IMG/VR virus record: IMGVR_UViG_3300005936_000021
Location: 1 to 22,792 of that record
DNA length: 22,792 bases
DNA from: a virus
Direction: 5' to 3' (one strand)
In this document: positions 6,721-22,792 of the stretch, piece after piece
Numbering within the stretch: position 1 is the stretch's first letter
Layout: each line of letters starts with the position of its first letter
Program-made: the position numbers and the translations under genes
Notes under the pieces: generated by a model
Seen by the model: only the letters and a program-made list of their open reading frames with translations
Told to the model about the DNA's origin: nothing
The model's database searches: none

Positions 6721-6721
6721 C

Positions 6722-7342
6722 ATGGAATTCGCAGGAGCAGATCCTGATTTAAGGGCTGTCTCGATCGCCTACGTGGATCGCAACGGGAAGATGGTAGGGT
6801 TCTTTCTCTACCGGTACCCGTCGAAGGCAAAGGGTGTCCCAAGGGACGAACTGCTGAACTGGGGGGTACACACGGCCACTTTCTGCCGACACCCGGCGAT
6901 GTTGGCTTTCGTAGAGTATCCCCAGATCACACCCAAGACGCCCAACCGTCAAAGCCTGGTAGAGCTGTCTGTCATCGCAGGCGCTCTGGCTGGGAACTTG
7001 GATGCCAGGTTGGCTCTGCCTATGCAGTGGAAAGGCTCGATCCCGAAGCACATCCACCAGGGACGGGTGTACGCCACCCAAGGATGGGACTTCAAGCAGG
7101 TAAAGGGTAAGAATGAGAAATACTCATACCCGATCGGGGAAGCGTATCGGCAGCACCTGAACAGCTGCTGGACTATCATTGACGGAGATCTCATCGAAGC
7201 TGGAGCCGAAAAGAGTCTCCCAAATTCCGTTTGGAAGGATCTGGGAGACTCGTTAGGCTTGGCCGTTCACGCGCAATGTGTGTATGAGGTCGAGACTACG
7301 GAGCGTCTTCCAGGTCACCTGATATATCCCACTCGTCAGTAG
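6722..7342 (+). CDS. RuvC-like Holliday junction resolvase / RNase H-fold nuclease
   Basis: A 206-residue protein that probably cuts branched DNA during phage recombination, replication or packaging. It carries the four acidic residues of RuvC at matching spacing: D7 in GADPDLRAVSIAYVD (first strand), E65 in FVEYPQ, and D173/D176 in WKDLGDSLGLA, equivalent to E. coli D7, E66, D138 and D141. WKGSIPKH in the middle resembles the segment seen in phage RuvC-like proteins. The start at 6722 is chosen because it has GGAGGTG at the right distance and lies 1 base after the preceding stop. It is the last gene of the + strand cluster; its final 47 bases overlap the convergent tail-fibre gene. It could alternatively be another RNase H-fold nuclease, but the catalytic set is complete. 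Confidence 0.82.
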   Translation: MEFAGADPDLRAVSIAYVDRNGKMVGFFLYRYPSKAKGVPRDELLNWGVHTATFCRHPAMLAFVEYPQITPKTPNRQSLVELSVIAGALAGNLDARLALPMQWKGSIPKHIHQGRVYATQGWDFKQVKGKNEKYSYPIGEAYRQHLNSCWTIIDGDLIEAGAEKSLPNSVWKDLGDSLGLAVHAQCVYEVETTERLPGHLIYPTRQ

Positions 7343-7979
7343 CAACTTTCCGAAGCGTTACCGTCGAATACTGCGCCCTGACTTTCAGAGTCTCCGGGGT
7401 ATTCACGGTAACGCCGGAGCCGGCCGCCACAGTTACCTGCCCCACCCCTACCTGGATGACCGGGATCTCCGCGCCAACAGCAAACACCAAGCTGGAATCC
7501 GGGGGTACTGTAACCGTGATAGCGCTGGCATTCGATGCGCGCACATACGAGTACTCATCAGTCAGAGCCAGGGTGTAAGTTGTCCCTGTCTGGTCGTTGA
7601 CAGTCCTGTTGTGGGGGTTGGCCCAAGTGCCATCGGCTCGCAGGAAGTGGTACGACGCGCCGGTCAGCTTGCGAAGCAGGCCATGCACGGAGGTCGACGC
7701 ATCCAGATCCGTGTTGTCATCAGGTGCAGCCAGATCGTCGAGTTTTGAACTGGCAGCCACGTTTACCCAAGAAGAGCCGTTCGACACCATCAGGGCCGGG
7801 GGTGAGGACTGCACCACCACAAGGCAGTGTTCGAACGACGCGGCTGCCGGCAACGCACCTACCGTTGCTACCCGATAGATCGGAAATGCGCCGCCTACCA
7901 ATAGGCCGAAGTTGGTGTTGACTTCGACTTCCCAGTTATTGAGACCTGAGAGAATTTCATCAAGTGTTGGACGTGCCAC
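7296..7979 (-). CDS. tail-fibre-like virion protein
   Basis: A 227-residue protein with a GTG start preceded by AAGGGG, 12 bases after the hub stop. The N-terminus (MARPTLDEILSGLNNWEVEV) is helical. The middle contains LRADGTWANP, a motif common in phage fibre and tail-tip proteins. The C-terminus is a beta-rich module with PDSSLVFAVGAEIPVIQVG and GQVTVAAGSGVTVN, a pattern I know from many phage receptor-binding and virion-attached proteins. It is the last gene of the tail block, a usual place for a fibre or receptor-binding subunit. Its 3' end overlaps the resolvase gene on the opposite strand. Fibre-like character is well supported; the receptor is unknown. Confidence 0.82.
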   Translation of the reverse strand: MARPTLDEILSGLNNWEVEVNTNFGLLVGGAFPIYRVATVGALPAAASFEHCLVVVQSSPPALMVSNGSSWVNVAASSKLDDLAAPDDNTDLDASTSVHGLLRKLTGASYHFLRADGTWANPHNRTVNDQTGTTYTLALTDEYSYVRASNASAITVTVPPDSSLVFAVGAEIPVIQVGVGQVTVAAGSGVTVNTPETLKVRAQYSTVTLRKVATDEWDISGDLEDAP

Positions 7980-7991
7980 AGTTCGTACCCC

Positions 7992-10496
7992 TTATAGCTT
8001 CTCGAAAGAACTCTCGTCGTATTCGCTTTCAAGCCCGTTCAAAGTGTTGACCAAGCGGATGAGGATTTCAGAAGGCTCCGACCCGAAATCAGATACCATA
8101 TTGCCGTTGGAATATGTGTAGCTGTTGTCGTCCAGGGAACTCACGGTCCTCTTCAGTGTGGTGCCGGTAGAGTCATAGATTCTCAAGGTAAACGTACCTT
8201 CAGGCAGTACAGGCTGTATCGCGGTACCGGCAGCTTGGAACCCGGCGCCGGAAGCTTTTTCAGAGGCGTTCCGAAATGACCACTTCAGATCGAGATCATT
8301 CCCTGCGTCCCAGCTGAGTAGGTTGTCAGACGAATTCAGGTTCTCGGGGGACATTGGTCGGTATCCGCTCCCCTGCATCGCTAGAGATGCTGTCGTGGCC
8401 ACAGACTCATTTATCGCATCGTTCCAGGTTTGCGGAATCGTTTTGATGGAGACCGTGTTTCCTGCTGCTAAGAAATCCCCTACGTACGGTACCAGGTACT
8501 TCTGATCGAAGATGAACACGTTTGACCCGGCCGCGTGCTCGACCTTTCTGGATCCAAACCTACCTCTGATTATCCCTTCCAATTGATAGGTAGTACTCGA
8601 CAGGATAACTATGTTTCTCAAGAACATGAATTCCCTATCGATCACACATAGCTGGTACCCGTTGCGCCATCCGGCTTCCGCTCCGGTGTAGTTGTCGACT
8701 TCATCCAGGTCGTCTCCAACCAGGGTGACCTCTGGGCCTTCCTCCTGTAGACTAAGCGCCGTGTCGCCTCCCATGGAGCTGTTCAACGTGCCTCCAAGGG
8801 AAATCATGCTGTTTGCCCCTAGATCATCATATGTCACTGAATCTAGGGAAAGGAGGATCGATGCCTCCGAGATTACTTTGGAGTCACGCACCCTGAATAG
8901 GTACGCTGCAAGGGTGTCAGGGCTTTGGTACCGGTTAGATTCAAGGAACGCGATAGCCGGATCAGGCTCAGCGACATCTAGGTCAAAACCTCCAGCGCCT
9001 ATGGTATCAGGCAACCGTGAATTAAGACCATAGATATCCTGAATCGACGCAAGTTCAGCGTACCCCTCGTCAGGCTTCAGGATGACACTCGTCAAGATGT
9101 ACAATGGTACAGTTCCCTCGATCCGGAACCGCTGACCGGGATACATCAACAGTGCCTCTCTGGAGGCTTTGAACTTCTGAGCAGACCCCCTACCGGAATC
9201 CTCCTGACTGCGTCTCTCAGATACGATCAGGGCAGTGTTCCAGTCACCTATGGTCGCCATCTGGACCTTTGCATCCTTTGGACTCTCCGAGTCGTCCAAA
9301 ATACCTTCTGATCCCCACACTACGGTCGTTTCTTTGAAGTTACGGTCCATGTCCGTAAACGTGTAGACAGTCCTTTCACAAGAATTTACGTAGTGGGATG
9401 TGATTGTCTCTGGTTCCCCAAACTCCAGTAGCCCGTAGGGAATGTCCGGAAAGGATTCCGACGATTCCCTGATCAAACTGAACTCAATAAGTCCAGTACT
9501 CGGGTTCCTACCCTTCAGGATCCCAAAATCCTGCATGAGAGCGGCAACGCTAGCTTTCCAAGACTCCCCATTTTGAAGCATCAAGTGACATGGAGTACCC
9601 TCAGCATCTACCGCTACCCCCACTGACGCCAGGCTATCGAGATCGAAGTGCCCTGTCGGTAGCTGCATCCCCCTCGGACTTGCAGAAAACAATATTTCCC
9701 GTAGGAGCGACGCCGGATTGTAACCTTCCCCATTAGCCGTCATCCAGTCGTCGATGCCTGGTATAAGAGTCTCTGTAGGTTTGACTGTGATCTCGTAATC
9801 AATAGTAGGCCAAATAGGGGAATACCCTAGACGCCTCTTAATCCACACACCATAGCACACACCCCGCCATGCGGAGCTTATGTTGTAGTCGCTAGCTACG
9901 GTCGCTCTTTCCTGAACACTGGCTTTAGCCGATTTAAACGCCGGTATGCCTCCCCAAAACAATTCCTGAAATGATAACTGAGATGATATTAGTTGTTGAT
10001 AATCGGTATTCGATATATGAGATACTCTCAACTCTGATGGTATATCTTGTGTGAGCGTTCCCCAGTATAAGTGAAAAGTCCCCCCTTTACCTAGATCTAT
10101 GACGGCTTTGTCAGGATTGCTATCCCTTGTTACTTCCCCCTCCCAGATTACTTCCCCATTTGCCCATATCTTCGTTAGGGAATACGCAGGCCCGACACAC
10201 AGGAAGTGGAGGGCATTCTCGTTATAGATGGTAACCTTGGAACTTTTCTTGCTACCACCTTTCTTCCCTCCACTGCCAGACTTTTCTTTCGTTATCACCC
10301 TATCCCCTACCCACCCTATGATAGCCCCGATCCTCTTTTTTCCCTTCAAAATTGGGATCATATTCCCGCGTGTGGAAGATGTCGTTGCCTTATCGTCGTT
10401 GAGCGTTGGCTCTTTTTGGTCCTTCCTGAGAAGCATCCCAGCCATGAGAGACAAGGCTTGAATGACAATGAAAGTTATTACCTTACCGATAAACAT
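7992..10496 (-). CDS. tail tip hub / host-specificity protein (J- and GTA gp15-like)
   Basis: An 834-residue tail tip protein expected to form the central hub that meets the host surface. A hydrophobic N-terminal segment (VITFIVIQALSLMAGMLL, about 5-23) is followed by IPILKGKKRIGAIIGWVGD (46-65), matching the IPxxYGxxRxxGxxIW motif of GTA gp15/J-like proteins. A low-complexity Gly/Ser/Lys stretch follows (about 72-89). Near residues 640-650, LEGIIRGRFGS corresponds to the conserved L-x-G-x-x-RG-R-x-G motif near the end of this family. The C-terminal part is a fibronectin-like beta region. The start overlaps the peptidase stop (TAATG). The segment around 9961-10020 has unusually low GC, and a mosaic origin is possible. 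Confidence 0.85.
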   Translation of the reverse strand: MFIGKVITFIVIQALSLMAGMLLRKDQKEPTLNDDKATTSSTRGNMIPILKGKKRIGAIIGWVGDRVITKEKSGSGGKKGGSKKSSKVTIYNENALHFLCVGPAYSLTKIWANGEVIWEGEVTRDSNPDKAVIDLGKGGTFHLYWGTLTQDIPSELRVSHISNTDYQQLISSQLSFQELFWGGIPAFKSAKASVQERATVASDYNISSAWRGVCYGVWIKRRLGYSPIWPTIDYEITVKPTETLIPGIDDWMTANGEGYNPASLLREILFSASPRGMQLPTGHFDLDSLASVGVAVDAEGTPCHLMLQNGESWKASVAALMQDFGILKGRNPSTGLIEFSLIRESSESFPDIPYGLLEFGEPETITSHYVNSCERTVYTFTDMDRNFKETTVVWGSEGILDDSESPKDAKVQMATIGDWNTALIVSERRSQEDSGRGSAQKFKASREALLMYPGQRFRIEGTVPLYILTSVILKPDEGYAELASIQDIYGLNSRLPDTIGAGGFDLDVAEPDPAIAFLESNRYQSPDTLAAYLFRVRDSKVISEASILLSLDSVTYDDLGANSMISLGGTLNSSMGGDTALSLQEEGPEVTLVGDDLDEVDNYTGAEAGWRNGYQLCVIDREFMFLRNIVILSSTTYQLEGIIRGRFGSRKVEHAAGSNVFIFDQKYLVPYVGDFLAAGNTVSIKTIPQTWNDAINESVATTASLAMQGSGYRPMSPENLNSSDNLLSWDAGNDLDLKWSFRNASEKASGAGFQAAGTAIQPVLPEGTFTLRIYDSTGTTLKRTVSSLDDNSYTYSNGNMVSDFGSEPSEILIRLVNTLNGLESEYDESSFEKL

Positions 10497-11026
10497 TACC
10501 AGTTATCCTTCCCCATAGGGCGTAACACTTGCTTGAACGAGTAGACCCCGTACTCCATGAAAGAGCACCCAGCCTTCACCACACTGAAAGTCGTAGCGTG
10601 ATACATCGTCCCAGGAACCGCCCCTACAACCATTCCATGCCCGAGGGTTCCCAATAGCGGACCACAGCACACCAGATCCCCTGGTTCCACACCATACGAT
10701 CCGTCAGCATTCGCCTCGATCTCAGTACTGGGGTAATGCTTCAAGAGCAAGTCGTAGATTCCCTTTGACTGTTTGTGGTCGGTCAAACAACAATCTTGAG
10801 CTATCAGGGGGAACTTTATGTAGGGTTGCTGGAACATGTCATCCATCACCCCGGTAACAAATCGTATGCAGTCTACCCCTACACCTTTGACTTGTTGCCC
10901 GAGGCCATAAGGTGTGTTGTTCCAACCATCCAACACCGATTTAAGACGATTGACATAACTGGCTTCTACTTCCGGCCAGCGGAAATCCATCGACCTCATT
11001 GATCGTTTCAGCGGCGTACGCATCAT
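10496..11026 (-). CDS. NlpC/P60 tail peptidase
   Basis: A cysteine peptidase of the NlpC/P60 family, 176 residues, likely tail-associated and cutting the peptide part of peptidoglycan during infection, as for GTA gp14 and lambda K-like proteins. The triad is visible: C53 in GVGVDCIRF, H130 in LGHGMVVG, and H143 in MYHAT. YVNRLKSVLDGWNNTPY before the Cys matches the usual family lead-in. An in-frame ATG at 11116 would add 30 residues and overlap the upstream gene by 94 bases. The start at 11026 is preferred because it forms an ATGA overlap with the upstream stop and has GGAGA 5 bases before it; 11023 (second ATG) is an alternative. The stop overlaps the hub start (TAATG). Confidence 0.88.
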   Translation of the reverse strand: MMRTPLKRSMRSMDFRWPEVEASYVNRLKSVLDGWNNTPYGLGQQVKGVGVDCIRFVTGVMDDMFQQPYIKFPLIAQDCCLTDHKQSKGIYDLLLKHYPSTEIEANADGSYGVEPGDLVCCGPLLGTLGHGMVVGAVPGTMYHATTFSVVKAGCSFMEYGVYSFKQVLRPMGKDNW

Positions 11027-11805
11027 ATGGTCTCCGATAGCGGGGAATACGGAACCATCTTGTATCCACACCCCAAGAAGTTGATCTCGTTGTTGTAGGC
11101 TAGGCAGGATTCCCAAGATTTATCACACCCTTGAATAAGCGTGACTTCTTGCCCTGCCATAGCCGCAGGAGGGGGCTGCACTAGAGTTAAGACACTTCCG
11201 GATTCCCACTTTTTGATCGTGAAATTCATACCGGCATACCGAAGTTTTCCCCTCCCGTATTGGTCGTCACTTGTTACGTGGGGTCTCGAGATGGTTACTT
11301 TGTTACCAGCGACCACTGAGCAAGTAACTGTTTCTTCCAAAAGAATCATCCGACACCCAATATCACCAAACACTCTCATACACTGGGCGTTACATGAAAT
11401 CCCTGCAGGTTTGTCGAAGTAGCTGCACACGTCCCGGTACGTCAAACGAGTTACCCCGAACTGATTTTTTGGGTTCCTGGTTGCGATGTACAAGTACCCG
11501 ATGTCGATCAGGTACACGTCATCGTCAAATTTCCCAAACACCTTGATCTCAGTTTTTGGCGAGACAGTCCCGTCTGTCAGTCGGGTGAGTATGACATCCT
11601 CGTCGCTGGAGATATCAATAGTGCCCTCAGACTCCTCCAGATCTGTAGTAGATGGTGCCAGGGTGATCTCCATCCCAGACACTGGGGAGTATGTGTCGCC
11701 GTCGTAAACGATCTCTTCATCGCTGGACGTCCAGAAGGCACCTGTCTCGCTATTTGACATCTTGACAAGGTAGTAGAATTCGTACCCTGGATCATGTATC
11801 GACAT
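11023..11805 (-). CDS. DUF2163/gpL-like tail tip protein with Cys cluster
   Basis: A 260-residue tail tip protein of the DUF2163/BR0599 group (GTA gp13-like, lambda gpL-like), sitting between the distal tail and the hub. The C-terminal signature GCDKSWESC...NNEINFLGCGY (227-247) matches the CDK-x-x-x-x-C...N-x-x-NF-x-G pattern of this group. Cysteines are frequent: C138, C142, C151, C227, C234 and C246, among others. lambda gpL-type proteins are known to coordinate an iron-sulfur cluster, so this set is a good candidate for the same. The N-terminal half is a beta-rich, acidic domain (YDGDTYSPVSGMEITLAPS). It has the ribosome-binding site AGGAG, and its end overlaps the peptidase start. Confidence 0.85.
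   Translation of the reverse strand: MSIHDPGYEFYYLVKMSNSETGAFWTSSDEEIVYDGDTYSPVSGMEITLAPSTTDLEESEGTIDISSDEDVILTRLTDGTVSPKTEIKVFGKFDDDVYLIDIGYLYIATRNPKNQFGVTRLTYRDVCSYFDKPAGISCNAQCMRVFGDIGCRMILLEETVTCSVVAGNKVTISRPHVTSDDQYGRGKLRYAGMNFTIKKWESGSVLTLVQPPPAAMAGQEVTLIQGCDKSWESCLAYNNEINFLGCGYKMVPYSPLSETI
11031..11035 (-). promoter_or_regulatory. ribosome-binding site that sets the peptidase start
   Basis: GGAGA on the minus strand, 5 bases before the ATG at 11026, inside the end of the upstream gene. Together with the ATGA overlap it decides for 11026 over the longer form starting at 11116. Confidence 0.65.
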
Positions 11806-11820
11806 CCCAATACTCCTGCC

Positions 11821-13539
11821 CTAGATGGTGATTGTCGCTTCTTCCAGTGTCTCTATCAGACTCACATCGACCGTCGCTATGGATCGAGTAACCCAAGATT
11901 CCGACATTTCATCAGACGCAAACCGTACCAGAGATCCGAATCCTGATCTGGTGACATCCAACAGTGATTCTAATATGGTGCCAGTTACCGTAAAAGTCAT
12001 CCTATCGGTAACACTATCATACGTAGCGCTGGATATCGGGTAGAACGACGTGCCTGTACTGGTCTGCAAATATACAAACTGGGAGACGGCTTCCGCCAAC
12101 ACCGAAGAGTCCGTCCAAGACTCCACCACAACCGTAGATGTTCCGACTGATACTAGGACGAAGGGCGCGTAGTCCGGCATATACCAAAACGATTCCAGCC
12201 TGCCCTTGGCCAGCTCAAAGAATCCCCCCAAGCGCCAGATCTCCGCACGACTGTTGAGAGATAGCTCAAGGTCATAGGATAGCGCAGGCCGGTCCCCTTT
12301 TGGCACGAAGATGCTGTTGGCTCCGAGAGTGTGGTCTTCCCCGTACATCTTGGACGAGATCCCGTAGCCTGACTTCCAGTTGTGATCAAAATCGAAGATC
12401 ATCTTTCCGCCATATTGATCGATGGTGCTAGGCACCGAATCGTAGCGGGCTGGGAGTCTTGTGGCTCCTGGTTTTTCAGTCGCTGAGTACTCCATGTCGG
12501 CGTTTGTCCAGTGGTTCATTGTCACGCCTGATTCCACAGTATACTTGGCGAGGTAACCAGGGAAGATCTTATCCCCGGCCTTGATTGTAGCGGAGCTGAA
12601 CGACTCTTGAACGATAACGTGATCGGAGTACACGGCAGTAATCGTGAAGGGGATGGCGGCCTTTTGTAGAGAATCTCCGGACAAAACGACAACATAGCCC
12701 CCAACGAAGAAGCGCTTGTACTCGGTATCGATGTTGATCTGCCTGGCCGAGACGTCGACAGAATCGACCTCGGTCAGATCGCAGTATATGATCGCTGGGT
12801 ATTCTTTGGTAGCGATACGATTAAGAGCTGCTACCATGCCCCTAGTCGTTCCCTCGTCTTGGGCACGGAAAGATGCCGTGCTTGACCTCTTGGGCCGTTT
12901 CCTGGTGCCCGCACGGCTTTCTGCTGATGTTCCAGCCAGGAACAATGACGTAACGAAGCTACTCGACAGCTCAAAGGACTCCAGCCAGTTGTGTTGGAAG
13001 ATTGGATACACAAGTCGCAGACCGTCTACTGTGACATCTGCGACATCGGCGCCTGTGATGATCCAGATGTAGGATGTGTCGACAACAGCAGGCCCGTCCT
13101 TATCTACGACTATCGTGTACTTGAAGCTGTCGTAGGGATCGAAATCGAAGGGGACATCAGTAGGCCCAGTCCCTATCTCCACACCCTCGACATCACCTGA
13201 GATGCTGGTGCACGTCTTCTTTTCTCGGTACGTGCTCCAAACTTCAACGTCTTCAGTGGCCGTCCCCAAGATCCTGTCGAGCGATATCGACGTGGGGTCT
13301 ACGATAATCCTATCGTACAGGGCCTCCCCAAGACCTTCGTATACGGCTCCGGACAACTCATCGCTGCCGATATCAGGATTGGTGTGCGCCAGATCCCCGG
13401 ATTCAGTATCGGGAAGAACCCACCCCCCACTCAGGTAAGGCGCAGCCTCTGATACGTTGACCACGTTGGACGACATAACTGATGCGTCCAACGCAGGCGA
13501 TATCAACGAATGTGCAATTGTCCCTGACAGGCTCGCCAT
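11821..13539 (-). CDS. tail tip protein with duplicated domain (distal-tail-like)
   Basis: A 572-residue tail protein lying where GTA-type clusters encode the DUF2460 distal tail component. I recognise a pattern seen in phage tail proteins of this size: an F-x-HNW element followed by a serine-rich loop, basic residues, and a helix ending in an aromatic-rich strand. It occurs twice: IFQHNWLESFELSS (W185) with RAGTRKRPKR, and FDHNWKSGYGISS (W388) with VPKGDRPALS. The copies are 203 residues apart, and each is followed by a beta-rich domain. The N-terminal region is beta-rich (PYDSFKYTIVVDKDG). The start overlaps the upstream stop (TAATG); 15 bases separate the stop from the next start. It is a structural protein; the precise tail position is inferred from gene order. 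Confidence 0.78.
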   Translation of the reverse strand: MASLSGTIAHSLISPALDASVMSSNVVNVSEAAPYLSGGWVLPDTESGDLAHTNPDIGSDELSGAVYEGLGEALYDRIIVDPTSISLDRILGTATEDVEVWSTYREKKTCTSISGDVEGVEIGTGPTDVPFDFDPYDSFKYTIVVDKDGPAVVDTSYIWIITGADVADVTVDGLRLVYPIFQHNWLESFELSSSFVTSLFLAGTSAESRAGTRKRPKRSSTASFRAQDEGTTRGMVAALNRIATKEYPAIIYCDLTEVDSVDVSARQINIDTEYKRFFVGGYVVVLSGDSLQKAAIPFTITAVYSDHVIVQESFSSATIKAGDKIFPGYLAKYTVESGVTMNHWTNADMEYSATEKPGATRLPARYDSVPSTIDQYGGKMIFDFDHNWKSGYGISSKMYGEDHTLGANSIFVPKGDRPALSYDLELSLNSRAEIWRLGGFFELAKGRLESFWYMPDYAPFVLVSVGTSTVVVESWTDSSVLAEAVSQFVYLQTSTGTSFYPISSATYDSVTDRMTFTVTGTILESLLDVTRSGFGSLVRFASDEMSESWVTRSIATVDVSLIETLEEATITI

Positions 13540-14462
13540 TACAACACCTTCTTGAACGCATATGCGATACCCGCATCAGTAGGGACAGGGTATGCATAGG
13601 TACCTGTTGCCTGGAACACCATGTACGTATCTGCCCCGAGGATCATCTCGCGCCCCTGAGTGTCGTTGAGGCCGTTGTACAGGGCCAGAGAGTCCTCCAG
13701 TGCCCCGAGGGCGTTCAGGTACCCAGACCCCGCATCAGACAGTATCTCTGGGACAACCAAAGCCCGACCTCCGGAAAAGCTATCCACTCCATGCAAGAGC
13801 ATCGGATAGTTGAGACCGAAAGCAGATTGGAAGTGTGACTCGCTGGGTGATGCCTGACCGAATCCGGTACGCGCCCAGTATTTCCAGGTGCTGTTGTGAT
13901 AGATAGCACTGGCGCAGCTGGCGTACCCCGTAGAGTTTGCCAATCCGGCATTGAGAAAGTGCAACGGAAGCAGATATGCTGGGGATGTCCCGGACGCCGT
14001 CATTGATAGGCTACCACTGTACCAGATGTCCCCCTTGTTCGTCTCCCCAAATGCCAAGAAGTTCCAGTGGCCGCCAGAACTGAGGACGGCCATTCCGTGT
14101 GTATCACCGTCAATGAAGAAGTGGTATTCTTCAGCATCTGTGAGATCGAACGTCTGAGCGAATCTGTTGTACGTCAGAGTGGATGCGCCGGGTTGCTCGT
14201 ACCACCCCAACCCAGACGAATAACTCGTACCGAGGTTCATGCAGATTCCGTCTACAGCAGTCTCTGACAGTCCGAAATTGTCACCAGTCGTGCGGGAACG
14301 CATGTTGAGGAATAGGCTACCCTTGTGGGCATGGAATCGATAGCCGTTTCCATCTACAGCCAAGTTATCCTGAGTCCACCCATTAGTCGTCAGAAATATT
14401 GACCAGGCTATCAACAGAGAGTCCTGACTAGCAACGGATGCTGTATTCGTTTGATATGCCAT
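13539..14462 (-). CDS. virion structural tail protein, 307 aa
   Basis: A Gly-, Ser- and Thr-rich protein without signal peptide or membrane segments. The N-terminus (MAYQTNTASVASQDSLLIAW, then FLTTNGWTQ) resembles a recurring opening of phage virion proteins (MAYxTGTA...DLL...F...GWT). Aromatic-rich beta segments continue throughout (GHWNFLAFGE, KGDIWYSGSL). It starts 6 bases after the propeller protein stop and overlaps the next gene by TAATG. I infer a tail component, possibly a subunit partner of the giant propeller protein upstream. No catalytic motif is visible. Confidence 0.8.
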   Translation of the reverse strand: MAYQTNTASVASQDSLLIAWSIFLTTNGWTQDNLAVDGNGYRFHAHKGSLFLNMRSRTTGDNFGLSETAVDGICMNLGTSYSSGLGWYEQPGASTLTYNRFAQTFDLTDAEEYHFFIDGDTHGMAVLSSGGHWNFLAFGETNKGDIWYSGSLSMTASGTSPAYLLPLHFLNAGLANSTGYASCASAIYHNSTWKYWARTGFGQASPSESHFQSAFGLNYPMLLHGVDSFSGGRALVVPEILSDAGSGYLNALGALEDSLALYNGLNDTQGREMILGADTYMVFQATGTYAYPVPTDAGIAYAFKKVL

Positions 14463-14468
14463 AACTCT

Positions 14469-17400
14469 CTACCTCTTGATTGCGCAGTACAGCTGTAGGG
14501 TCTCGGCCGGGAACACGTCGTAAACGTCGGTTCCTACCGTCACTGTGTCTTCGGCCGATACCCCAAACGGAGGAATGAAGTACATCCCCTCCAGTTGGCC
14601 GAACACCTTTCCGTCCGTGATCAATGTGGCTGCCATCAGGTCGTACACCGAGGACTCGTCCGGCTTGAGTATAGGGCCCAACTCGGTCAAATCGGAAGAG
14701 TCATACTGCACGTTCCAAGGCCACACTGAAACCCGACCTGTATCTGGGTGATCTCCTATCGGAAGCCAAGTAGTGTATCTCAGGTAAGCGTTCGACGCAG
14801 ACTCCCCAGGGTAACCGTTGTAGAAGCAGGCTCCGAGGTGTTCTGAGATAATCTGACTCAACGACGATGCTCCGACGTACATCGGATATGGGTTCCCCGT
14901 CACGGGGCTCAGGGGAGAATCGTTGCTGTAGTACAGCCCCGAGTACCCGACTTCATATCGCATATTGGGACGAGCTACAGTCACGATAGACCGACCCGAT
15001 ATGTACAGCCAGTACTCATAGGAGTTGTTGTTGACCAGGCGGTACAGAGGTCGGTATGTCTGGCTTACTTGGTACATCGATCCGGGTTGGAGCCAGAAGG
15101 TTTGAGCACTCTCGTATCCCGTGTAGCCCTCGGCATAAAGCCCGAACCTGCCGTTCGTGACGTCTGTGTATGTCCGGAATCCGATGTAAACATCATCCGT
15201 CCCATCGCTGCCGGGTCCTTTAAGTATCAGCTCCGATTCGGTATCCAGTCCGAATTCGAAGATTTTGGAGTCCATCCCCTCTGCGATAAACAGTGTCGAT
15301 CCTCCCGGATCGAGGGCTATGCCCGATGGTGCCATGGTGTACGAGCTGAGGTCGAAATACTCAGAACCGTAACTCGCCGTAGTGATATCCCAAGCTGTCG
15401 TTAGATCGTACTGGTAGGCGTAGTCGTTGTCCTGACCACAAATGATGAAGCGCATGCCGTCGTCGGTGAACACAAGGTTGTACATGTCTGTGTCTTCACT
15501 GGACATGTCGAACATCGACACGTAGCTGGCGGTGGACAGGTCCCAAGGTGTCGATAGTGTGTACCTTGCCAGGGTGGCTGTTGTCCCGACCCTCACCACG
15601 AACATCTCAGTGCCGTCCGGACTAAAACAGATCCCCTGAGGGACCGTGGTTAAGTAGGAAACATCCAAGGACACGACCCCGACAGCGGTGGCTGAGGTGA
15701 GATCATAGGCTGACGATAATGGGTACTGATAGACGTATTTAGTAGAGGCGCCAGCCACGTACATCTTGGTGCCGTCGTCGTTGAACGCCACGCCGTTCGG
15801 GGTGGCGTCTTGGGCAGAGACATCGAACTCTGGGTAGTTTCTTGATACAGGAGACACTATATCCCAAGCAGCATTTAACGAATACTCAACTACGTCGCCA
15901 CCTAAACTTATGGAAGCACTGGCAAAATATACGGTGTCCCCCGTACTATCATACGCCATACCTCTAACAATCTCAGGTATTGCGATACCGCTGATATAGG
16001 TGTAAGCCGCTAGGCTCCAAGCGGATGTCAGGGAGTACTTTTCTATATTGCCATTAACCTGGCCAATATAGGCATAGCTCCCTGTAGAATCAAATAATAT
16101 AGAGCCAAAGATTGCTCCAGATTTGGTTAGGCTATGTCCTGAATAGGAAGCCGTTGTTATGGACCATGCTATCGAAAGATCGTGCTGATACACAGTAGTA
16201 TCTGTAACAACATACATAGCTGTTCCATCAGCACTGAAAGCCAAGTTTTTAGCCGCTGATGTTGGGGGGGTAACGACTACGTTAGCCCCGAACCCTGCTG
16301 TCCCCAAATCCCAAGCGGTAGACAGGGGTGTCGATCCTACGTAATTAGTGCCCAAAGAGTCGTACAAATAGTACACTGTGGTTCCAGTAGGATTGAACCA
16401 GCACCCCTTCAAATTTCCAGAGATAGGCCCGAACGAGTGCCCTCCATACTCTGCTGTTATTACTACCCAAGGTACTCGCAAAGAATACCTGTAAATAGTA
16501 TCCGTGGTCCCGTCACACACGAACATGTACACACCATCTGTGCTGAACCTTATTCCTTCCAAATCGTCGCACTCCGACGAGACATCGTACTCTTTCGCGC
16601 CGTAGTAAGCACTAGCAATGCGCCAAGGCACTTCCATGTCCAACATGCGCACGTATCCATCGGTTACGTCGGTCAGAAACACTTCTTCCCCGTCTGGATT
16701 GAACGCCATCCCTACCAATCCCGTACCGGAGATAGCATCCGAGGCATCGACCTCCTTCGTATCTTGCCAAAGGGTAGAAACATCCCAATCCGTAGACATG
16801 GCAAGCTGATAAATGGTATCGTCGTCCGGGTCCATCACATACCAGATATCGCCGGTAGCATTGGCTTTCATAAAGACTGGATTGCCCCATCCGAAATCGA
16901 CAATCGACGATTTTTCCCCGTATGAAATTGTTGAAATATCTCCCGGAGTAGCTACAGGATACTGGTACAGGGTATCGGCAGTACTGCAGTAGAAAAAGGC
17001 ATCATCCAAGTCAGAGCTCAGCACCATGGATCGACAATACGCCACATCTGCATAGGCCCCTTGTTTCGATGCGTAACTCCCAGTAGACAGGTCGTACGGG
17101 GTAGTCATGGAGTACTGGGCAACGATGTTGTTCGTACTGGACGTCACGTACAGATTGGATCCCGTATCGTCGAAAACCAGATCCGATCCTGTAGTCGTCA
17201 GCTCTGTAGCCACACTGAGCGTCTTTGACGCATACGTGGCCGTGCTCAGGCCCCAGGCGACGGTCATCGTGTATTGGTACACGACCCCCCCAGTACCCAC
17301 CACGTACATACCCAACCCGTCCGGGCTGAACGCCAACCCTTGAGGGCTGGTTGTTTGTCCCGAGGTATCAAAAGACGCCGTATCGTACGTAGCGGAATCT

Positions 17401-17951
17401 ATATATCCCGCACGACTCAGCGTGTAAGAATAGACAGACTTATTTGTGTCCAGTATGAAGAGTTTTGTCCCCTCTGGGTTCAAGACAAACGCCCTAGCGT
17501 TAGCCGCCCCCGCACTGTAATCAAACTCTCCTGTGTACCCTTCTGCTGTCGTAACGTCTACCAGATTCCTGTACCTCATCTCCTCCCACACATTTTCCCC
17601 GATTAGTTGGGTTACGACAAATTCGAAGACATCTCCGACGATGAAATCGGTTGACCCGTCCGAGATCGTAAACGCCACGATATCGTTGTCGTATGCCGTC
17701 CCAACATAAGTCACTGCCTTCGCTCCGGACACACTACCTACCACTGAGAACGTGCCTCCATCGACGGCTGTAGCCGTGCATGTAAGAGTCCAAGTTTCGG
17801 ACGGGGCGTCGTTCTCTGCCACAGGATATGAGATCAAGCCGTTACCCGTACCAGTCGCGGACGGAGTACCCACGGAATTGGCGACAGTGGCGTGGTCTCT
17901 GATCTTTTCCAGCAACCCCAAATGGCTATCTATAGTGCCTGTGAATCTCAT
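14469..17951 (-). CDS. giant tail protein with about 15 beta-propeller-like repeats
   Basis: A 1160-residue protein probably displayed on the virion. Residues 1 to about 140 form an N-terminal module (IDSHLGLLEKIRDHAT, then ETWTLTCTATAVDGGTFSVV and VGDVFEFVVT) that I recognise from phage virion proteins. About 142-910 are about 15 tandem repeats of roughly 50 residues with consensus P-x-G-(I/L)-x-F-S-x-D-G-x-x-(M/L)-Y-V...V-Y-Q-Y-x-L-S-T-x-W-D-(L/I)-S-T-A-S-Y, the NHL/YVTN-like propeller pattern. From about 910 the virion module resumes (ILKGPGSDGTDDVYIGFRTY, later GNPYPMYVGASS). The ATG at 17951 is chosen over the adjacent TTG at 17954: it overlaps the tape measure stop as TGATG and has GGAGGA upstream. 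The role may be glycan or receptor binding, or decoration; no enzyme residues could be assigned. Confidence 0.85.
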   Translation of the reverse strand: MRFTGTIDSHLGLLEKIRDHATVANSVGTPSATGTGNGLISYPVAENDAPSETWTLTCTATAVDGGTFSVVGSVSGAKAVTYVGTAYDNDIVAFTISDGSTDFIVGDVFEFVVTQLIGENVWEEMRYRNLVDVTTAEGYTGEFDYSAGAANARAFVLNPEGTKLFILDTNKSVYSYTLSRAGYIDSATYDTASFDTSGQTTSPQGLAFSPDGLGMYVVGTGGVVYQYTMTVAWGLSTATYASKTLSVATELTTTGSDLVFDDTGSNLYVTSSTNNIVAQYSMTTPYDLSTGSYASKQGAYADVAYCRSMVLSSDLDDAFFYCSTADTLYQYPVATPGDISTISYGEKSSIVDFGWGNPVFMKANATGDIWYVMDPDDDTIYQLAMSTDWDVSTLWQDTKEVDASDAISGTGLVGMAFNPDGEEVFLTDVTDGYVRMLDMEVPWRIASAYYGAKEYDVSSECDDLEGIRFSTDGVYMFVCDGTTDTIYRYSLRVPWVVITAEYGGHSFGPISGNLKGCWFNPTGTTVYYLYDSLGTNYVGSTPLSTAWDLGTAGFGANVVVTPPTSAAKNLAFSADGTAMYVVTDTTVYQHDLSIAWSITTASYSGHSLTKSGAIFGSILFDSTGSYAYIGQVNGNIEKYSLTSAWSLAAYTYISGIAIPEIVRGMAYDSTGDTVYFASASISLGGDVVEYSLNAAWDIVSPVSRNYPEFDVSAQDATPNGVAFNDDGTKMYVAGASTKYVYQYPLSSAYDLTSATAVGVVSLDVSYLTTVPQGICFSPDGTEMFVVRVGTTATLARYTLSTPWDLSTASYVSMFDMSSEDTDMYNLVFTDDGMRFIICGQDNDYAYQYDLTTAWDITTASYGSEYFDLSSYTMAPSGIALDPGGSTLFIAEGMDSKIFEFGLDTESELILKGPGSDGTDDVYIGFRTYTDVTNGRFGLYAEGYTGYESAQTFWLQPGSMYQVSQTYRPLYRLVNNNSYEYWLYISGRSIVTVARPNMRYEVGYSGLYYSNDSPLSPVTGNPYPMYVGASSLSQIISEHLGACFYNGYPGESASNAYLRYTTWLPIGDHPDTGRVSVWPWNVQYDSSDLTELGPILKPDESSVYDLMAATLITDGKVFGQLEGMYFIPPFGVSAEDTVTVGTDVYDVFPAETLQLYCAIKR
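15220..17528 (-). repeat. about 15 tandem propeller-blade repeats (~50 aa each)
   Basis: Degenerate protein-level repeats of about 150 bases inside the giant tail protein. Well-preserved cores include GLAFSPDGLGMYVV, GMAFNPDGEEVFLTD, NLAFSADGTAMYVV, GVAFNDDGTKMYVAG and GICFSPDGTEMFVV, with linkers such as AWDITTASYGS and PWDLSTASYVS. Fifteen units fit two seven-bladed propellers plus one unit, or another closure. The units are well diverged from one another. Confidence 0.85.
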
Positions 17952-20900
17952 CAAAATCCTCCGCCAGCGCGTGTTTGATTTGGGTTTTGGTTCGACGCCT
18001 TGGATACTGCTGCGTCAAAGGACGACCTGCCTCCGGCGATCATTCGTTCCATCGACAGCTCGTTGGCAACCAGAACGGGAAGAATCTGAGACATTGGTCC
18101 AGATCCGTAGCCAACCGATCCACCAGAAGCTGCTGATGCCATACCCCTTACCATAGGCACCGACTCCACAACTGTCGAGACGCCGGGCAAAGAACTGCTA
18201 TCGAGCTGCAGGTTATTCATAGCCTGGAACAGCGACGCTCCGTACTTGGACACGGCTTCGGGACGTATGACGTACTCAGAGGGTCTTAGCCACGCAGGAA
18301 CCGTATCCCTACGATCGATACCGGCAGGTCGGCCAGGTACTGGACCCCCGGACGCATACCCTCTGACCATGCCTCCGTGAGCTGCACCCCCGAAGTAACT
18401 CATGGCCATTGATGCCAAGCCGCCGATAGCAGCACCCACACCACCCCCACCACCCCCACCACCCCCACCACCCATACCAGAAAACAGACTGCTTAGGGAT
18501 CCCATAATCCCCTCAAATCCCCCAGACAGCAGTCCAGACATACTACTCATTAACCCCCCAAAACCTCCAGAGAACAACCCACCTATACTGCCTAGGAGTC
18601 CAGAGAAACCTCCGGACAAGACTCCGGTCAGGCTGCCAAGCATCTTTTTGAAGCCCCCGGTAATCGTCCCCAACATGCCGGGCGACTTAGAAGTCATCAT
18701 GTCTGTCGTTTCGGTGGCTCCCCCTACAATGCCTTCACCCGAAACCACAGATGTCTGCTTCTCTGCCGTTTTCGTGCCAAAGATACCAGAAAAGATCTTG
18801 CTTAGTGGCCCCATAACCGCCTCAGATTTCGCCCCCTCGGTCAATGCAGATACTATCCCGTCCAAGGTCTCTTCGAATACCTTCTGACCCAACTTATCCG
18901 CGAAGCTCAGCAGAGCGTTGCCTAGGGCTGTGCGCAGGTCGTAATCAAGTCCTGCGACACTGCGAGTGAACGCCTGGGAGAGGGTACCTGCTACGGTCGT
19001 CTGAAGTTCAGAGAATCCATCCCCCATTTCAGTGAAATAGTTTACCGTCCCTTTTCGCTTGATATCAAGGCTGTCCTGCTCCATTTGGGTACGGATTTCA
19101 TGTTCATCACGCAACCCCCCAATGTTAATGTCGATCACCTTTCGTCTATTAGCGATCTCTGTATCGAGAGCTGCTTGAGCGTCCGTTACCTTGGTTTTAT
19201 CTTCAGGTGTGGCAGCTTTGGAAAGCTGGTCTGAGAGTATGCGCTTCCGGACAGCCTCTTCTTCCTTCAGGTTCGCGAGAGCTTGGGTGTGCAATGTAAG
19301 CAACGCGCTACGCTCAATATCAGATTCCTGAGCCAGGTACTGTAGGTTGATGGTTGCACGTTCTTTGGCAGCTTTTTTCTCAGATAGCTTACCAGAATCA
19401 ACCTTGAACTGAACGACATCCAACGCGAACTTCTTTTCCTGTGCGATACGCGCCGTCAGGTAGTTCTTTTCGGCGTTCTTCTGGGCCTGCACCTTGATTA
19501 GCGCCAACTGTTCTGCATACACCTTATCGAGAGATGTTATCTGTGCACCTGTGGCTTTCGCCCCAGATTCGGCTTTGATTATACCTCCCACTTGGGTCGT
19601 TACTTTTCCCTTTGACTCAGTATTTAATCCACTTAGTGTCGCTGCCTGCCTACCCTTCGCGAGTCCCAGCCCTTCTTTGATCACCTCAAGTCTTGCTTTA
19701 GCATCCCGCAGTGACGATGCGTCTCCTGCCATCTCCAAAGCTTTGATCTCGTTAACAAGCTGTCGCTCGGATCGCTTCAGGTCAAGAACCTCCAGGGACG
19801 CCGCCTTGAACGCCGCCACCGCGTGGATCTCACCAGCTGTGAAGAGCTTTGTCGATTTGGCTTCTTCCTTTCTGGCATCTGCCGATGCCTTGAACGCTGC
19901 CTGCTGATCCTGCAGCGTCTTCTTCAGGTTGGCGTATTCTTCCCGGGCAAACGATGCCGCCTGGACGTCTTTCAGAATCACAGCGGCCAATCCCGACACG
20001 CTGGTCCCATAATCCCCAGAGTCGAACTTGAACTCCCCAGCTTCCTTTTTTGCCTCTTCAAGGTACGAGGTCATATCGGCAAGGTTGTAGTTGGTTGAAA
20101 TCACGGATGCCGCCACGGAATCCAGGAACGTGTCTATCAACTTCAGAGACTCTACCGTACCATCGTCTACCCCAATCCCAGCCCTCTTATCTGCCTTTTG
20201 GGTGATGCCAACTAGCTTATCGGATGTTTCCTTTCCGATAGCTTTCCAGACGGCGTTAAGGTCTTCTTTCGTCTGCTCCAGGGTCTTTATTGCTTTGGCG
20301 TCAGCTTCCGTTAGGATTCCAGTAAAATGGAAAGCCTTTAGCATCGAATCTAAAATACTCTTGAATTGCCCGAGAAAGTATCCACCAAATGCAAACAGTG
20401 GGGCTGCCAGTACCTGTGCTGCACCCTCAAACAATACCCGAAGGGCACTCAGAAATTCTGTGAAATTGAGTTGGCCGCCCTCCCCTCCCATGCTGGCTAG
20501 TTTGTTCGAAATCATCTGAAGTGCTTTTACCACAACCAAAGTGATCACAGATATCGCGGCGCCAGTGAGCAGGACTGATTTCATCCAAACGATAGCAGCT
20601 CCTGCTGTAAGCCCTCCACCGGCCCCAACACTCACAAGTCCGGCCTTTGACGCCAAACCTCCGGCTGCTCCGGCTGCTTTTACACCTAATCCCTTAGCCG
20701 CACCAGTAGCACCTAGAGCGCCCAATGCGTTTGTAACGCCTGCAGCCTTTAACAACTTCAATGATGCTACCAATGCTACAATAGCCGCCGTGAGCTTGCC
20801 CAGACCTGCAGCCAGTGTGCTAGATCTCGTCCCAAAGATCTCCAGCTTGTCGAATGCTGTTACCAGCTTGCTGACCCACCCGAAGATTGTTACGAACGTT

Positions 20901-22792
20901 TTAACGATCTCCAACGCGTATACGACCAACACCCTCAAAGATTTCCCCAAGGAGGCAGCCAGATCCTCTAAATTGCCCCCTACCGCCAGCCTGCGTACGT
21001 ATTGAAGAAGCAGCTTGATTTCATCAGCGAATGCCGTTAGGGCTGCCAGTGCCGACTTGCTCGGCTGCATTTTGCCAAACGGATCCTTGGTAACCAAAGC
21101 GTTCGACAGATCCGTAACCAGGTCTTTGAAATCTTCGAACACTCCTATCCCGGCTGCTCCGGCTAGCAACTGGAACCGGTCTTTCAGGTTACTGAGTTTG
21201 ACTGTGAGAGTTTCCATACTCTCTTCGCCGGCGTCGTTGAACGCTTGGAACCGCGACTGGAGTTCCTTGAACAGCGTCCCCATAGCTGTCCAGTTTTTCA
21301 CGTCCTCCCGAGAGATATCCAAACTCACTGCCAGACGCGATGTCTGTTGACGGATCTGCCCTGTGAGTAGCGACCTGATCTCTTCGGGTAGCTGGTTCTG
21401 AAGAAGTCCGACAGCCGTGGCCGCCCGGGACACACTGCCTGTAAACTCCCGAACCTGATCCGGATCAAACCCGGCTTTCATTCCCGGGGCTATGGCATAC
21501 TGGAGATTCCTAGCCAGATCCTCAAATGTCGAGCTCGTAGATAGGGCATCAACGCGCAACTTGCGCATCTGGTCCCTCGACACCGCATGGGCAGCGTTAA
21601 GGGCTTCCACCCCCTTTAATAGCCTCCCGTTCTCATCCACAAGGGTACCCGTAGCTGTGAACAAGGCTGCCAACCCCAACTCGGTCACTTCCATCTCAGC
21701 ATTGAACCGGAACAGTTCCGTGATGACGGTACGTAGTGCTCTGGTAAACTGGTTGATGATGGTGTAGAAGGCGTACACCTTGAACAGGTGGGCCAGATTC
21801 ACTGCGTAGCTTCTTGTGGACTTCGAAGCCTGACTCATCGTTTTTGCGTTCTCCTGGACTTCAAGACCCAGCTGCCTCGCAACGTTCGGGTCATTGATAT
21901 CCAACCCGGCCTTGGTTGCTAGAGTTTTGGTGCGCCGGGCAAGAACCTGCTGATTAAGCAAATTCGTGATTCGCTTCTGTGCCTGCTCCTCAACAGAGAG
22001 TCGCTGGAGGTTCTTGTCCTTCAGCTTTGCGATAGTTGTTTCGATAGCTCTCTGGGCCTTCAGTATCGAAATAACCCGCTCTTTCTTTTGGAGCGTCAGG
22101 TTTTCAAGCTGGAACTTTTTGCTCTCCAAAGAGACAAGTCTGGCTTCCAGATCATACTTCTTCTTTATGGTCTGGTAATCCCGATCGTGAAGGACATCCC
22201 TCGACGTTTCGAGAGCTTGTCTACGCTGCATGAGCGCTACTTGCTTCTGCAGCCCCTGAACATCCGGACTGCCACCAACAGTCAGTGTAGTTTTCAACGA
22301 CGATAGGCGTGTCTGTAGTGCTACCTGAGTCTTGAGACCTTGAAGCACTCGACTACCGGCCAAAACTAAGGCCTGCTTCAAACTCTGTTGCTGCTGGAGC
22401 GCAGCATTCTCTAGTTTGAGCTTCTGCAGTCCCGTATCTGAAGACGAAGCTATTTGGTTGGTGAGCTGTTGTTTCTTAGAGAGTATCGCGACAGAGCGTT
22501 CTTGCTCTTGGAGCGCCCGGTTCCCGAGTTGGAGTCTCTTACTCTCCAGTGCCAGAGATCTGGATTCCTGGTCGACACGAAGCTTGAGCTTCTGGTATTC
22601 CTTATCGTGCAGAGAATACGACTTGTTTTTGAGGTTCTGAATCTGACGCTGGAGGTATGCTTGCTGCTTCGTAAGATCTGCTGTATTCTCAACCTCCGTG
22701 TTGAGGGTATGGGCAGCTTTAGCCGACTTGTCGAGCGCTGTAGAAAGTGCTACTGCATTCTGGGCAGATTGCTTGGAGAACTTGAATGATGC
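17951..22792 (-). CDS. tail tape measure protein, 5' end outside window
   Basis: The tape measure protein sets tail length and often helps DNA entry. The frame is open to the right edge: the codons from 22792 to the TTG at 22381 contain no stop, so 1613 residues are visible and the start lies outside. The first ~320 visible residues are Lys/Glu/Gln-rich coiled coil with an internal duplication. Next comes a core (about 330-650) with hydrophobic LFKVYAFYTIINQF. A hydrophobic part around 20510-20830 contains possible membrane segments (GAAISVITLVVVKAL). Further coiled coil follows. The C-terminus has three 15-residue Gly-rich repeats, an 11-Gly run, and GGPVPGRPAGIDRRDTVPAW then LRPSEYVIRPEAVSKYG, the usual tape measure ending. 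It is the most upstream visible gene of the tail block. Confidence 0.93.
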   Translation of the reverse strand, partial: ASFKFSKQSAQNAVALSTALDKSAKAAHTLNTEVENTADLTKQQAYLQRQIQNLKNKSYSLHDKEYQKLKLRVDQESRSLALESKRLQLGNRALQEQERSVAILSKKQQLTNQIASSSDTGLQKLKLENAALQQQQSLKQALVLAGSRVLQGLKTQVALQTRLSSLKTTLTVGGSPDVQGLQKQVALMQRRQALETSRDVLHDRDYQTIKKKYDLEARLVSLESKKFQLENLTLQKKERVISILKAQRAIETTIAKLKDKNLQRLSVEEQAQKRITNLLNQQVLARRTKTLATKAGLDINDPNVARQLGLEVQENAKTMSQASKSTRSYAVNLAHLFKVYAFYTIINQFTRALRTVITELFRFNAEMEVTELGLAALFTATGTLVDENGRLLKGVEALNAAHAVSRDQMRKLRVDALSTSSTFEDLARNLQYAIAPGMKAGFDPDQVREFTGSVSRAATAVGLLQNQLPEEIRSLLTGQIRQQTSRLAVSLDISREDVKNWTAMGTLFKELQSRFQAFNDAGEESMETLTVKLSNLKDRFQLLAGAAGIGVFEDFKDLVTDLSNALVTKDPFGKMQPSKSALAALTAFADEIKLLLQYVRRLAVGGNLEDLAASLGKSLRVLVVYALEIVKTFVTIFGWVSKLVTAFDKLEIFGTRSSTLAAGLGKLTAAIVALVASLKLLKAAGVTNALGALGATGAAKGLGVKAAGAAGGLASKAGLVSVGAGGGLTAGAAIVWMKSVLLTGAAISVITLVVVKALQMISNKLASMGGEGGQLNFTEFLSALRVLFEGAAQVLAAPLFAFGGYFLGQFKSILDSMLKAFHFTGILTEADAKAIKTLEQTKEDLNAVWKAIGKETSDKLVGITQKADKRAGIGVDDGTVESLKLIDTFLDSVAASVISTNYNLADMTSYLEEAKKEAGEFKFDSGDYGTSVSGLAAVILKDVQAASFAREEYANLKKTLQDQQAAFKASADARKEEAKSTKLFTAGEIHAVAAFKAASLEVLDLKRSERQLVNEIKALEMAGDASSLRDAKARLEVIKEGLGLAKGRQAATLSGLNTESKGKVTTQVGGIIKAESGAKATGAQITSLDKVYAEQLALIKVQAQKNAEKNYLTARIAQEKKFALDVVQFKVDSGKLSEKKAAKERATINLQYLAQESDIERSALLTLHTQALANLKEEEAVRKRILSDQLSKAATPEDKTKVTDAQAALDTEIANRRKVIDINIGGLRDEHEIRTQMEQDSLDIKRKGTVNYFTEMGDGFSELQTTVAGTLSQAFTRSVAGLDYDLRTALGNALLSFADKLGQKVFEETLDGIVSALTEGAKSEAVMGPLSKIFSGIFGTKTAEKQTSVVSGEGIVGGATETTDMMTSKSPGMLGTITGGFKKMLGSLTGVLSGGFSGLLGSIGGLFSGGFGGLMSSMSGLLSGGFEGIMGSLSSLFSGMGGGGGGGGGGGVGAAIGGLASMAMSYFGGAAHGGMVRGYASGGPVPGRPAGIDRRDTVPAWLRPSEYVIRPEAVSKYGASLFQAMNNLQLDSSSLPGVSTVVESVPMVRGMASAASGGSVGYGSGPMSQILPVLVANELSMERMIAGGRSSFDAAVSKASNQNPNQTRAGGGF
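17957..17962 (-). promoter_or_regulatory. ribosome-binding site of the propeller protein
   Basis: GGAGGA on the minus strand, 5 bases before the ATG at 17951 and inside the last codons of the tape measure gene. It supports the ATG within TGATG as the start. Confidence 0.65.
18440..18472 (-). repeat. 9-bp tandem repeat encoding an 11-glycine run
   Basis: On the coding strand the unit GGTGGTGGG is repeated three times and followed by GGTGGT, giving 11 consecutive Gly codons in the tape measure protein. The run is a likely slippage site. Five G-runs of three or more bases, separated by short loops, meet the usual G-quadruplex pattern on the coding strand. Confidence 0.9.
18482..18616 (-). repeat. 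three 15-aa SGGF repeats in tape measure C-terminus
   Basis: Three consecutive units begin SGGF: SGGFSGLLGSIGGLF, SGGFGGLMSSMSGLL and SGGFEGIMGSLSSLF. Each is 15 residues (45 bases), Gly/Ser-rich with hydrophobic positions. They look amphipathic or membrane-seeking and lie just before the poly-Gly linker. Confidence 0.85.
22031..22621 (-). repeat. duplicated 57-aa coiled-coil segment in tape measure protein
   Basis: Copy A (22451-22621) and copy B (22031-22201) lie exactly 420 bases (140 residues) apart in frame. By hand alignment without gaps 23 of 57 residues are identical, including LHD, ALESK/SLESK and ER...IL. The corresponding DNA is also recognisably similar. This is a protein-level duplication within the coiled coil. 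Confidence 0.85.

Follow-up and report, generated by a model that had tools for sequence, protein, structure and literature searches.

The window analysed here, a stretch of 22,792 nucleotides of viral DNA (positions 1 to 22,792 of IMG/VR record IMGVR_UViG_3300005936_000021), carries on its minus strand a gene for a protein of 1160 residues, P0001, in which a long propeller segment is nested inside a phage tail-fibre subunit. We refer to this gene as fibre A. Its ATG overlaps the stop codon of the large frame upstream by one base (TGATG) and only 6 bases separate its own stop from the start of the next gene, which places it within the tail operon. The order of genes in the window is that of phage JBD30, namely tape measure (assigned by position only), fibre A, fibre B, distal tail, upper baseplate, hub and receptor-binding protein (Table 1).

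Fifteen repeats of about 51 residues each were counted across residues 131-905 of P0001, as the earlier note on this DNA, made by a model from the letters, had estimated. A profile built from the eight odd-numbered blades recovered the seven held-out even-numbered blades with 18.3-36.0 bits, against 6.2 bits for the best of 200 segment shuffles, and the Pfam propeller family SGL matched the protein above its cut-off (E 9.1e-13). An AlphaFold2 model (model 1; 13-row alignment, flanks unmodelled) yielded propeller blades, as the same note had expected of a structure prediction, with about four strands per blade and a mean predicted local distance difference test score (pLDDT) of 60-90 in most ten-residue blocks of residues 140-905, several blocks being lower, down to 29. 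The solved structures among the matches listed for this model were all propeller proteins, single as well as tandem. The 15 blades may close as one ring or as two, two propellers in series being compatible with that number. Two mixed alignments (A5 and A6) intended for a fuller model were discarded because the flanks were poorly aligned in them.

The sequences flanking the propeller were recognised in phage proteins that lack it. Residues 1-141 and 906-1160 of P0001 match, in order, residues 14-142 and 145-383 of Ab19 gp67 (423 residues), and the flanks match Bhz54 (423 residues) in the same order at residues 14-138 and 145-395; the two modules lie 2-6 residues apart in these propeller-less proteins. 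Both flanks without an intervening propeller are also present in two further loci (L177 and L178), and the tail operons of Ab19 and Bhz54 resemble that of the window. A site-1 module that precedes the first conserved strand is common to Ab19, Bhz54, L177 and L178 and is missing from the minimal members of the family; the N-terminal module alone gave PDB matches at chance level only (E >= 0.25) and no Pfam match. These matches bear out the earlier note in placing the propeller between an N-terminal and a C-terminal phage module, and they contradict the outcome that it named as refuting, flanks that never occur directly joined. Its assignment of the flanks to ordinary virion proteins stands insofar as they are phage fibre modules, but they are not generic ones, belonging to a lateral fibre subunit of the JBD30 gp47 type.

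The latter assignment was derived from both sequence and fold comparisons. P0001 matched JBD30 chain 8rk3_c over residues 907-1139 (phmmer, E 1.5e-6), Ab19 gp67 matched it at E 1.3e-17, and the fibre family profile did so at E 1.9e-91, a value that is partly a self-match as two JBD24-type rows are in the profile. With a second model, built on 19 family rows (two JBD24-type rows among them), Foldseek returned 8rk3_K first (E 2.6e-9) and 8rk3_G fifth (E 1.3e-6), and VIA-align gave 8rk3_K a Z of 18.0 over 259 residues at 4.2 Å, the next row reaching Z 4.0; the fibre-core part of this model is of modest confidence, with block means of 36-82. The 318-residue chain of 8rk3 was taken as gp47 because its JBD24 relative, also of 318 residues, is encoded directly behind the tape measure, and because it has Asp at residue 185, as stated for gp47, and lacks the Tyr at 169 and the Cys at 142 that are stated for gp48. 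By core homology, fold and gene position, fibre A belongs to the JBD30 gp47 type of lateral tail-fibre subunit. In JBD30, gp47 and gp48 are reported to build three bent arms, which clasp the type IV pilus (PMC11445458).

In the alignment, the fibre fold runs from a helix through a strand around Trp 122 to the next strand at residue 907. The loop from the aromatic residue of strand 1 to the start of strand 2 measures 784 residues in the window protein, 12, 12, 13 and 18 residues in Ab26, PG288, BabaJaga and JBD24, 12 in Ab19 and Bhz54, 169-174 in YuA, SN1, DLP4 and VPv64, and 153 in a further viral locus, L105. The first strand is placed well in a seed alignment made without the propeller, while the automatic alignment places that of P0001 poorly. 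The claim of a cassette inserted in a conserved tail protein is sustained, and the site is refined to the loop that joins strands 1 and 2 of the carrier. A linear fusion was considered and rejected, as the conserved strand with Trp 122 precedes the propeller and the strand at residue 907 comes after it.

The same loop holds a different domain in relatives. The core profile is carried by 115 frames, of which 111 pass E 1e-20 with the profile start and fall into 33 clusters at 85% identity. The clusters were assigned by reading of the list, and since the queries behind the frames were chosen ones, the proportions cannot be taken as frequencies: 18 of the 33 clusters have no insert in the loop (L103 among them, cut at its start), the loop is longer in 10, another 3 possess only the module ahead of strand 1, and the last 2 form the window clade with both module and propeller (one being the 5'-open L009). 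All four longer-loop clusters that were checked matched the Pfam F5/8-type-C domain (E 2e-7 to 4e-4), DLP4 and VPv64 alone exceeding the cut-off; the remaining six were assigned to it by similarity to YuA. This domain occupies the same loop in YuA, DLP4, VPv64 and L105, and because YuA, DLP4 and VPv64 carry it there, the loop is, as judged from the alignments, a domain-insertion site. In a tree of 29 clusters (L009, L103, L127 and L181 were left out), the F5/8-type-C domain requires two changes and the site-1 module three, the latter forced by supported branches; the domain may have had a single origin in the tree. L105 (3001-4242) carries a diverged F5/8-type-C domain in its fibre loop and stands outside the YuA group in the tree, possibly as a second acquisition. 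Another locus, L127 (2501-5304), contains three consecutive fibre-type frames (a gp47-type frame, a frame with a second-fibre-type start and a gp47-type core, and another fibre-type frame), which represent either a duplication or an assembly repeat.

Comparison of the window with its closest relatives revealed where the propeller varies. Three records, G001, G002 and G003 (the last holding part of the gene), are practically one phage and are 99.3-99.9% identical to the window in alignable DNA. Against G002, 110 columns differ in the alignable parts, and two stretches remain unaligned, 15831-16584 within the propeller and 20632-20782 within the tape measure. A codon comparison with locus L007 gave 3 base differences in residues 1-141, 5 in residues 142-455, 6 in residues 708-905 and none in the 255 codons of residues 906-1160; in residues 456-707, by contrast, only 47 of the 240 aligned codons were alike, 143 being non-synonymous and 50 synonymous, with 17 gap columns. 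The joints of this five-blade block are sharp and keep both the repeat register and the frame, each lying within the strand motif E-Y/F-D-V-S (GAGTACGATGTCTC and GAGTTCGATGTCTC in the window). The two versions of the block are mutual best matches among the proteins compared (39%, 139 bits; next match 96 bits), and blades 7-11 pair by position at 67, 45, 47, 35 and 37%, the fourth tying with blades 9 and 15. Because of this mutual matching and position-by-position pairing, the blocks are, by these comparisons, deep alleles of the same blades and not unrelated blades. The block is the largest difference between the window and the near-identical phages; the probable receptor-binding gene shows 0 differences from G002 and the hub one column. 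A search of viral contigs for a donor of the window block gave four pattern matches, none of which was confirmed, and a search with the other allele found it only in G001-G003.

We consider it rather probable that fibre A encodes a gp47-type lateral-fibre subunit whose inserted 15-blade propeller is an add-on adhesin head, with a specificity changed by recombination of blade blocks. The subunit would stand in a lateral tail fibre projecting from the baseplate, as in JBD30, and the cassette in the strand 1-strand 2 loop would be suspended from the arm as an additional head without keeping the arm from pairing with its gp48-type partner. The propeller would hold a host surface molecule, either a glycan or pilin, and so give the phage a second grip, and recombination that exchanges blocks of whole blades would alter the specificity of the propeller. 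An extra adhesion head on a pilus-type arm is the most likely role by analogy with the carbohydrate domains of evolved Dit proteins and the propeller-bearing receptor-binding protein of phi11, and the five-blade difference between near-identical viruses suggests that this part of the propeller helps choose the host. As for the pilus itself, phage AXL1 needs the type IV pilus, and its virions contain gp37, a 484-residue 'tail fibre protein' whose entry follows that of the tape measure; its authors suspected genes other than gp37 (PMC9206674). AXL1 fits a link between this fibre family and the pilus if gp37 is a homologue of the DLP4 protein.

Several alternatives to an adhesin head with exchangeable blades were weighed. 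The propeller could have no ligand of its own and serve the fibre arm as a spacer or decoration, by stiffening or shielding it. Propellers often serve as scaffolds, and ten of the fifteen blades and all fibre modules are almost unchanged between the two genotypes; yet this explanation, which we regard as unlikely, accounts neither for the 39%-identical replacement of five blades in otherwise near-identical phages nor for the sugar-binding-type domain in the same loop of relatives. It is slightly less likely still that the propeller is an enzyme (of the lactonase, lyase or depolymerase type) with which surface polysaccharide is cut during entry. Both SGL (SMP-30/gluconolactonase-like) and Arylesterase score above their Pfam cut-offs on the whole protein, but a single stretch of 33 residues passes individually for SGL and none for Arylesterase, a result that any such propeller might yield. 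The five-blade difference could also be an artefact, one metagenome contig being a chimera built from two strains that occurred together. Each of the four records is a viral contig taken from an assembly, and the flanks, more than 99% identical in the two genotypes, favour misjoining. We consider this account a little less likely again than the enzyme: frame and repeat register are preserved at both joints, each blade finds its counterpart at its own position in the other allele, save for a single tie, and the other allele recurs in three records; a chimera would still imply that both alleles exist. A diversity-generating retroelement, or targeted hypermutation of another kind, is a very improbable source of the diversity, although the numerous amino-acid changes restricted to one stretch might hint at it, as reverse transcriptase (PF00078) was found in none of the four records searched, all of them possibly incomplete, and 17 gap columns with 364 base differences over 240 codons suit replacement rather than point mutation.

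A number of observations weigh against the reading of an exchangeable adhesin head. Only two genotypes were compared, G001-G003 counting as one, and all compared genotypes are assembly contigs. The propeller is not the sole difference, since 52 of the 110 differing columns against G002 fall at 6382-6755 and about 150 bases of the tape measure (20632-20782) fail to align. On the structural side, model 1, in which the blades may form one ring or two, has a predicted template modelling score of 0.34, the second model has a mean pLDDT of 44.5, and Asp185 of JBD30 gp47, a predicted contact to PilA, aligns with Phe in the window protein, in a loosely aligned stretch. The tree pairs the core of P0001 with that of Brevundimonas phage BabaJaga, whose protein carries neither of the inserts; both branches are long, which drew a warning from the program, and the lineage in which the propeller was inserted is unsure. 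The support from other phages, set out below, is narrow (4 of 8 proteins and 2 of 9 groups). As to the two variable stretches themselves, 6382-6755 is covered by two overlapping frames of the plus strand (5638-6720 and 6563-7342), neither with an informative family match, and 20632-20782 reads as an Ala- and Gly-rich peptide.

Related propellers were then sought in other phages. P0001 matches 73 loci in viral contigs (L007-L079), of which L007-L009 constitute the window clade. No frame of L010-L079 matches the fibre core at E 1e-5, and the core is absent at E 1e-3 from the DNA covered around 35 propeller loci of bacterial and archaeal genome records found with P0001. Four of the eight propeller proteins scanned match PHROG families, including tail-fibre, tail or baseplate families, and the other four match none. 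On these grounds, phage contigs commonly carry the propeller, in part at least as a virion module, and its gp47-type carrier is peculiar to the window clade within the contigs searched. A prophage search of genome contigs with fibre alignment A3 gave 16 pattern matches, none confirmed, and a search of viral contigs with the DLP4 fibre gave no confirmed match. Among nine filtered groups of near-identical propeller contigs, there are two in which closely related members have diverged in the propeller. In the first, the propeller of L020, L021 and L034 differs from that of L026, although trunk and tail on either side of it are shared; between L020 (8905-10821) and L026 (6774-8705) the propeller is swapped as a cassette, the contigs being 98.9% identical upstream and sharing the C-terminal tail. 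In the second, L050 differs from L061 and L063, the L050 contig stopping inside the propeller. The other seven groups, mostly near-copies, have no propeller difference, which again counts against an exchangeable head, and near-identical pairs outside the filter (including L011/L019, L013/L022, L014/L029, L018/L024 and L070/L071) show no propeller break; less close pairs (L011/L015 and L015/L044) have patchy propellers. In Synechococcus phage S-SKS1, an unannotated frame of 1571 residues (L006, 2707-7419) carries related propeller repeats and strongly resembles a baseplate wedge protein (PHROG 2885).

More tentatively, and with considerable doubt, we propose that tail-fibre propellers evolve host specificity through in-register exchange of blade blocks by way of the conserved blade strand, so that the binding face is partly swapped and the ring stays intact, here on the insertion loop of a pilus-gripping arm.

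Table 1. Features of fibre A and its neighbouring genes in the window.
Feature	Residues	Positions	Strand	Basis or remark
Fibre subunit A gene (JBD30 gp47 type, nested propeller)	1160 plus stop	14469..17951	minus	P0001
N-terminal helix (M..GT...H..LL.KI), common to fibre family	1-27	17871..17951	minus	alignments
Site-1 module (ETWTLTC..., predicted beta strands)	28-117	17601..17870	minus	
First conserved strand of fibre fold, GENVWEEMRYRNL, Trp 122	118-130	17562..17600	minus	alignment
Inserted propeller cassette, 15 blades	131-905	15237..17561	minus	
Five-blade block	~456-707	15831..16584	minus	other allele in G001, G002 and, as far as its record reaches, G003
Fibre-fold core from second strand onward (ELILKGPG...)	907-1160	14472..15233	minus	
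Partner fibre subunit B	307	13539..14462	minus	PHROG 687, as fibre A; JBD30 gp48 position
Probable tape-measure protein		17951..22792, runs past window end	minus	gene order alone, family match absent
Distal tail protein		11821..13539	minus	PHROG 1082; gene order as in JBD30
Upper-baseplate/hub protein		11023..11805	minus	Phage_BR0599, PHROG 778
Baseplate hub protein		7992..10496	minus	PHROG 1101; Rcc01698-like C-terminus slightly below cut-off
Probable tip receptor-binding/tail-fibre protein		7296..7979	minus	unchanged against relative in G002

Among the neighbouring genes, the partner subunit fibre B found no match of its own in a PDB sequence search. The baseplate hub protein has two distant phage matches, Sphingomonas phage Kimi and RcSimone-Hastad, and a search among phages with the polymerase of the window gave no match.

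The results single out a loop, in a widespread subunit of tail fibres, at which phages mount extra domains, and such inserts account for part of the length variation among proteins labelled just 'structural protein'. They also yield two naturally occurring, near-identical phages that differ most, at the protein level, in five blades, which makes blade function directly testable. Among the literature matches listed, judged by title and the start of the abstract in the open-licence literature, no paper describes a propeller in a JBD30-type fibre or an exchange of blade blocks.

Compared with known systems, the window protein shares with JBD30 gp47 (8rk3/8rk5) the homology of the core fold, the gene order and a partner subunit of the same family, whereas it has 1160 residues against 318 and does not keep the predicted pilus contact Asp185. 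JBD24 gp49, a close relative of JBD30 gp47, has 18 loop residues where the window protein has 784 and is without the site-1 module. Ab19 gp67 and Bhz54 have the same N-terminal module, flank order and tail gene order as the window, with 12 loop residues and no propeller, and YuA gp70 and the DLP4 tail fibre protein use the same loop for a smaller F5/8-type-C insert (169-174 residues). The gp67/gp68 fibres of Lydia were already likened to those of JBD30 by their authors, in passages that describe neither an insertion site, nor a propeller, nor blade exchange (PMC11946847). For the receptor-binding protein Gp45 of phi11, it has been proposed that the propeller holds the sugar receptor; unlike the window cassette, it is a five-bladed domain of a homotrimeric receptor-binding protein and not an insert in a lateral fibre (PMC4901313). 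In skunaviruses, the evolved Dit differs in its carrier, in its carbohydrate-binding domain in place of a propeller and in its Lactococcus hosts (PMC10688798). Fibre A is not itself an evolved Dit, as its carrier is a gp47 homologue and the distal tail gene is a separate frame (11821-13539). The resemblance lies in the principle: carbohydrate domains inserted in the conserved baseplate protein Dit are reported to aid adsorption, and forms with and without the domain coexist (PMC10688798), and the window protein likewise carries a domain inserted in a conserved tail protein that has relatives without it.

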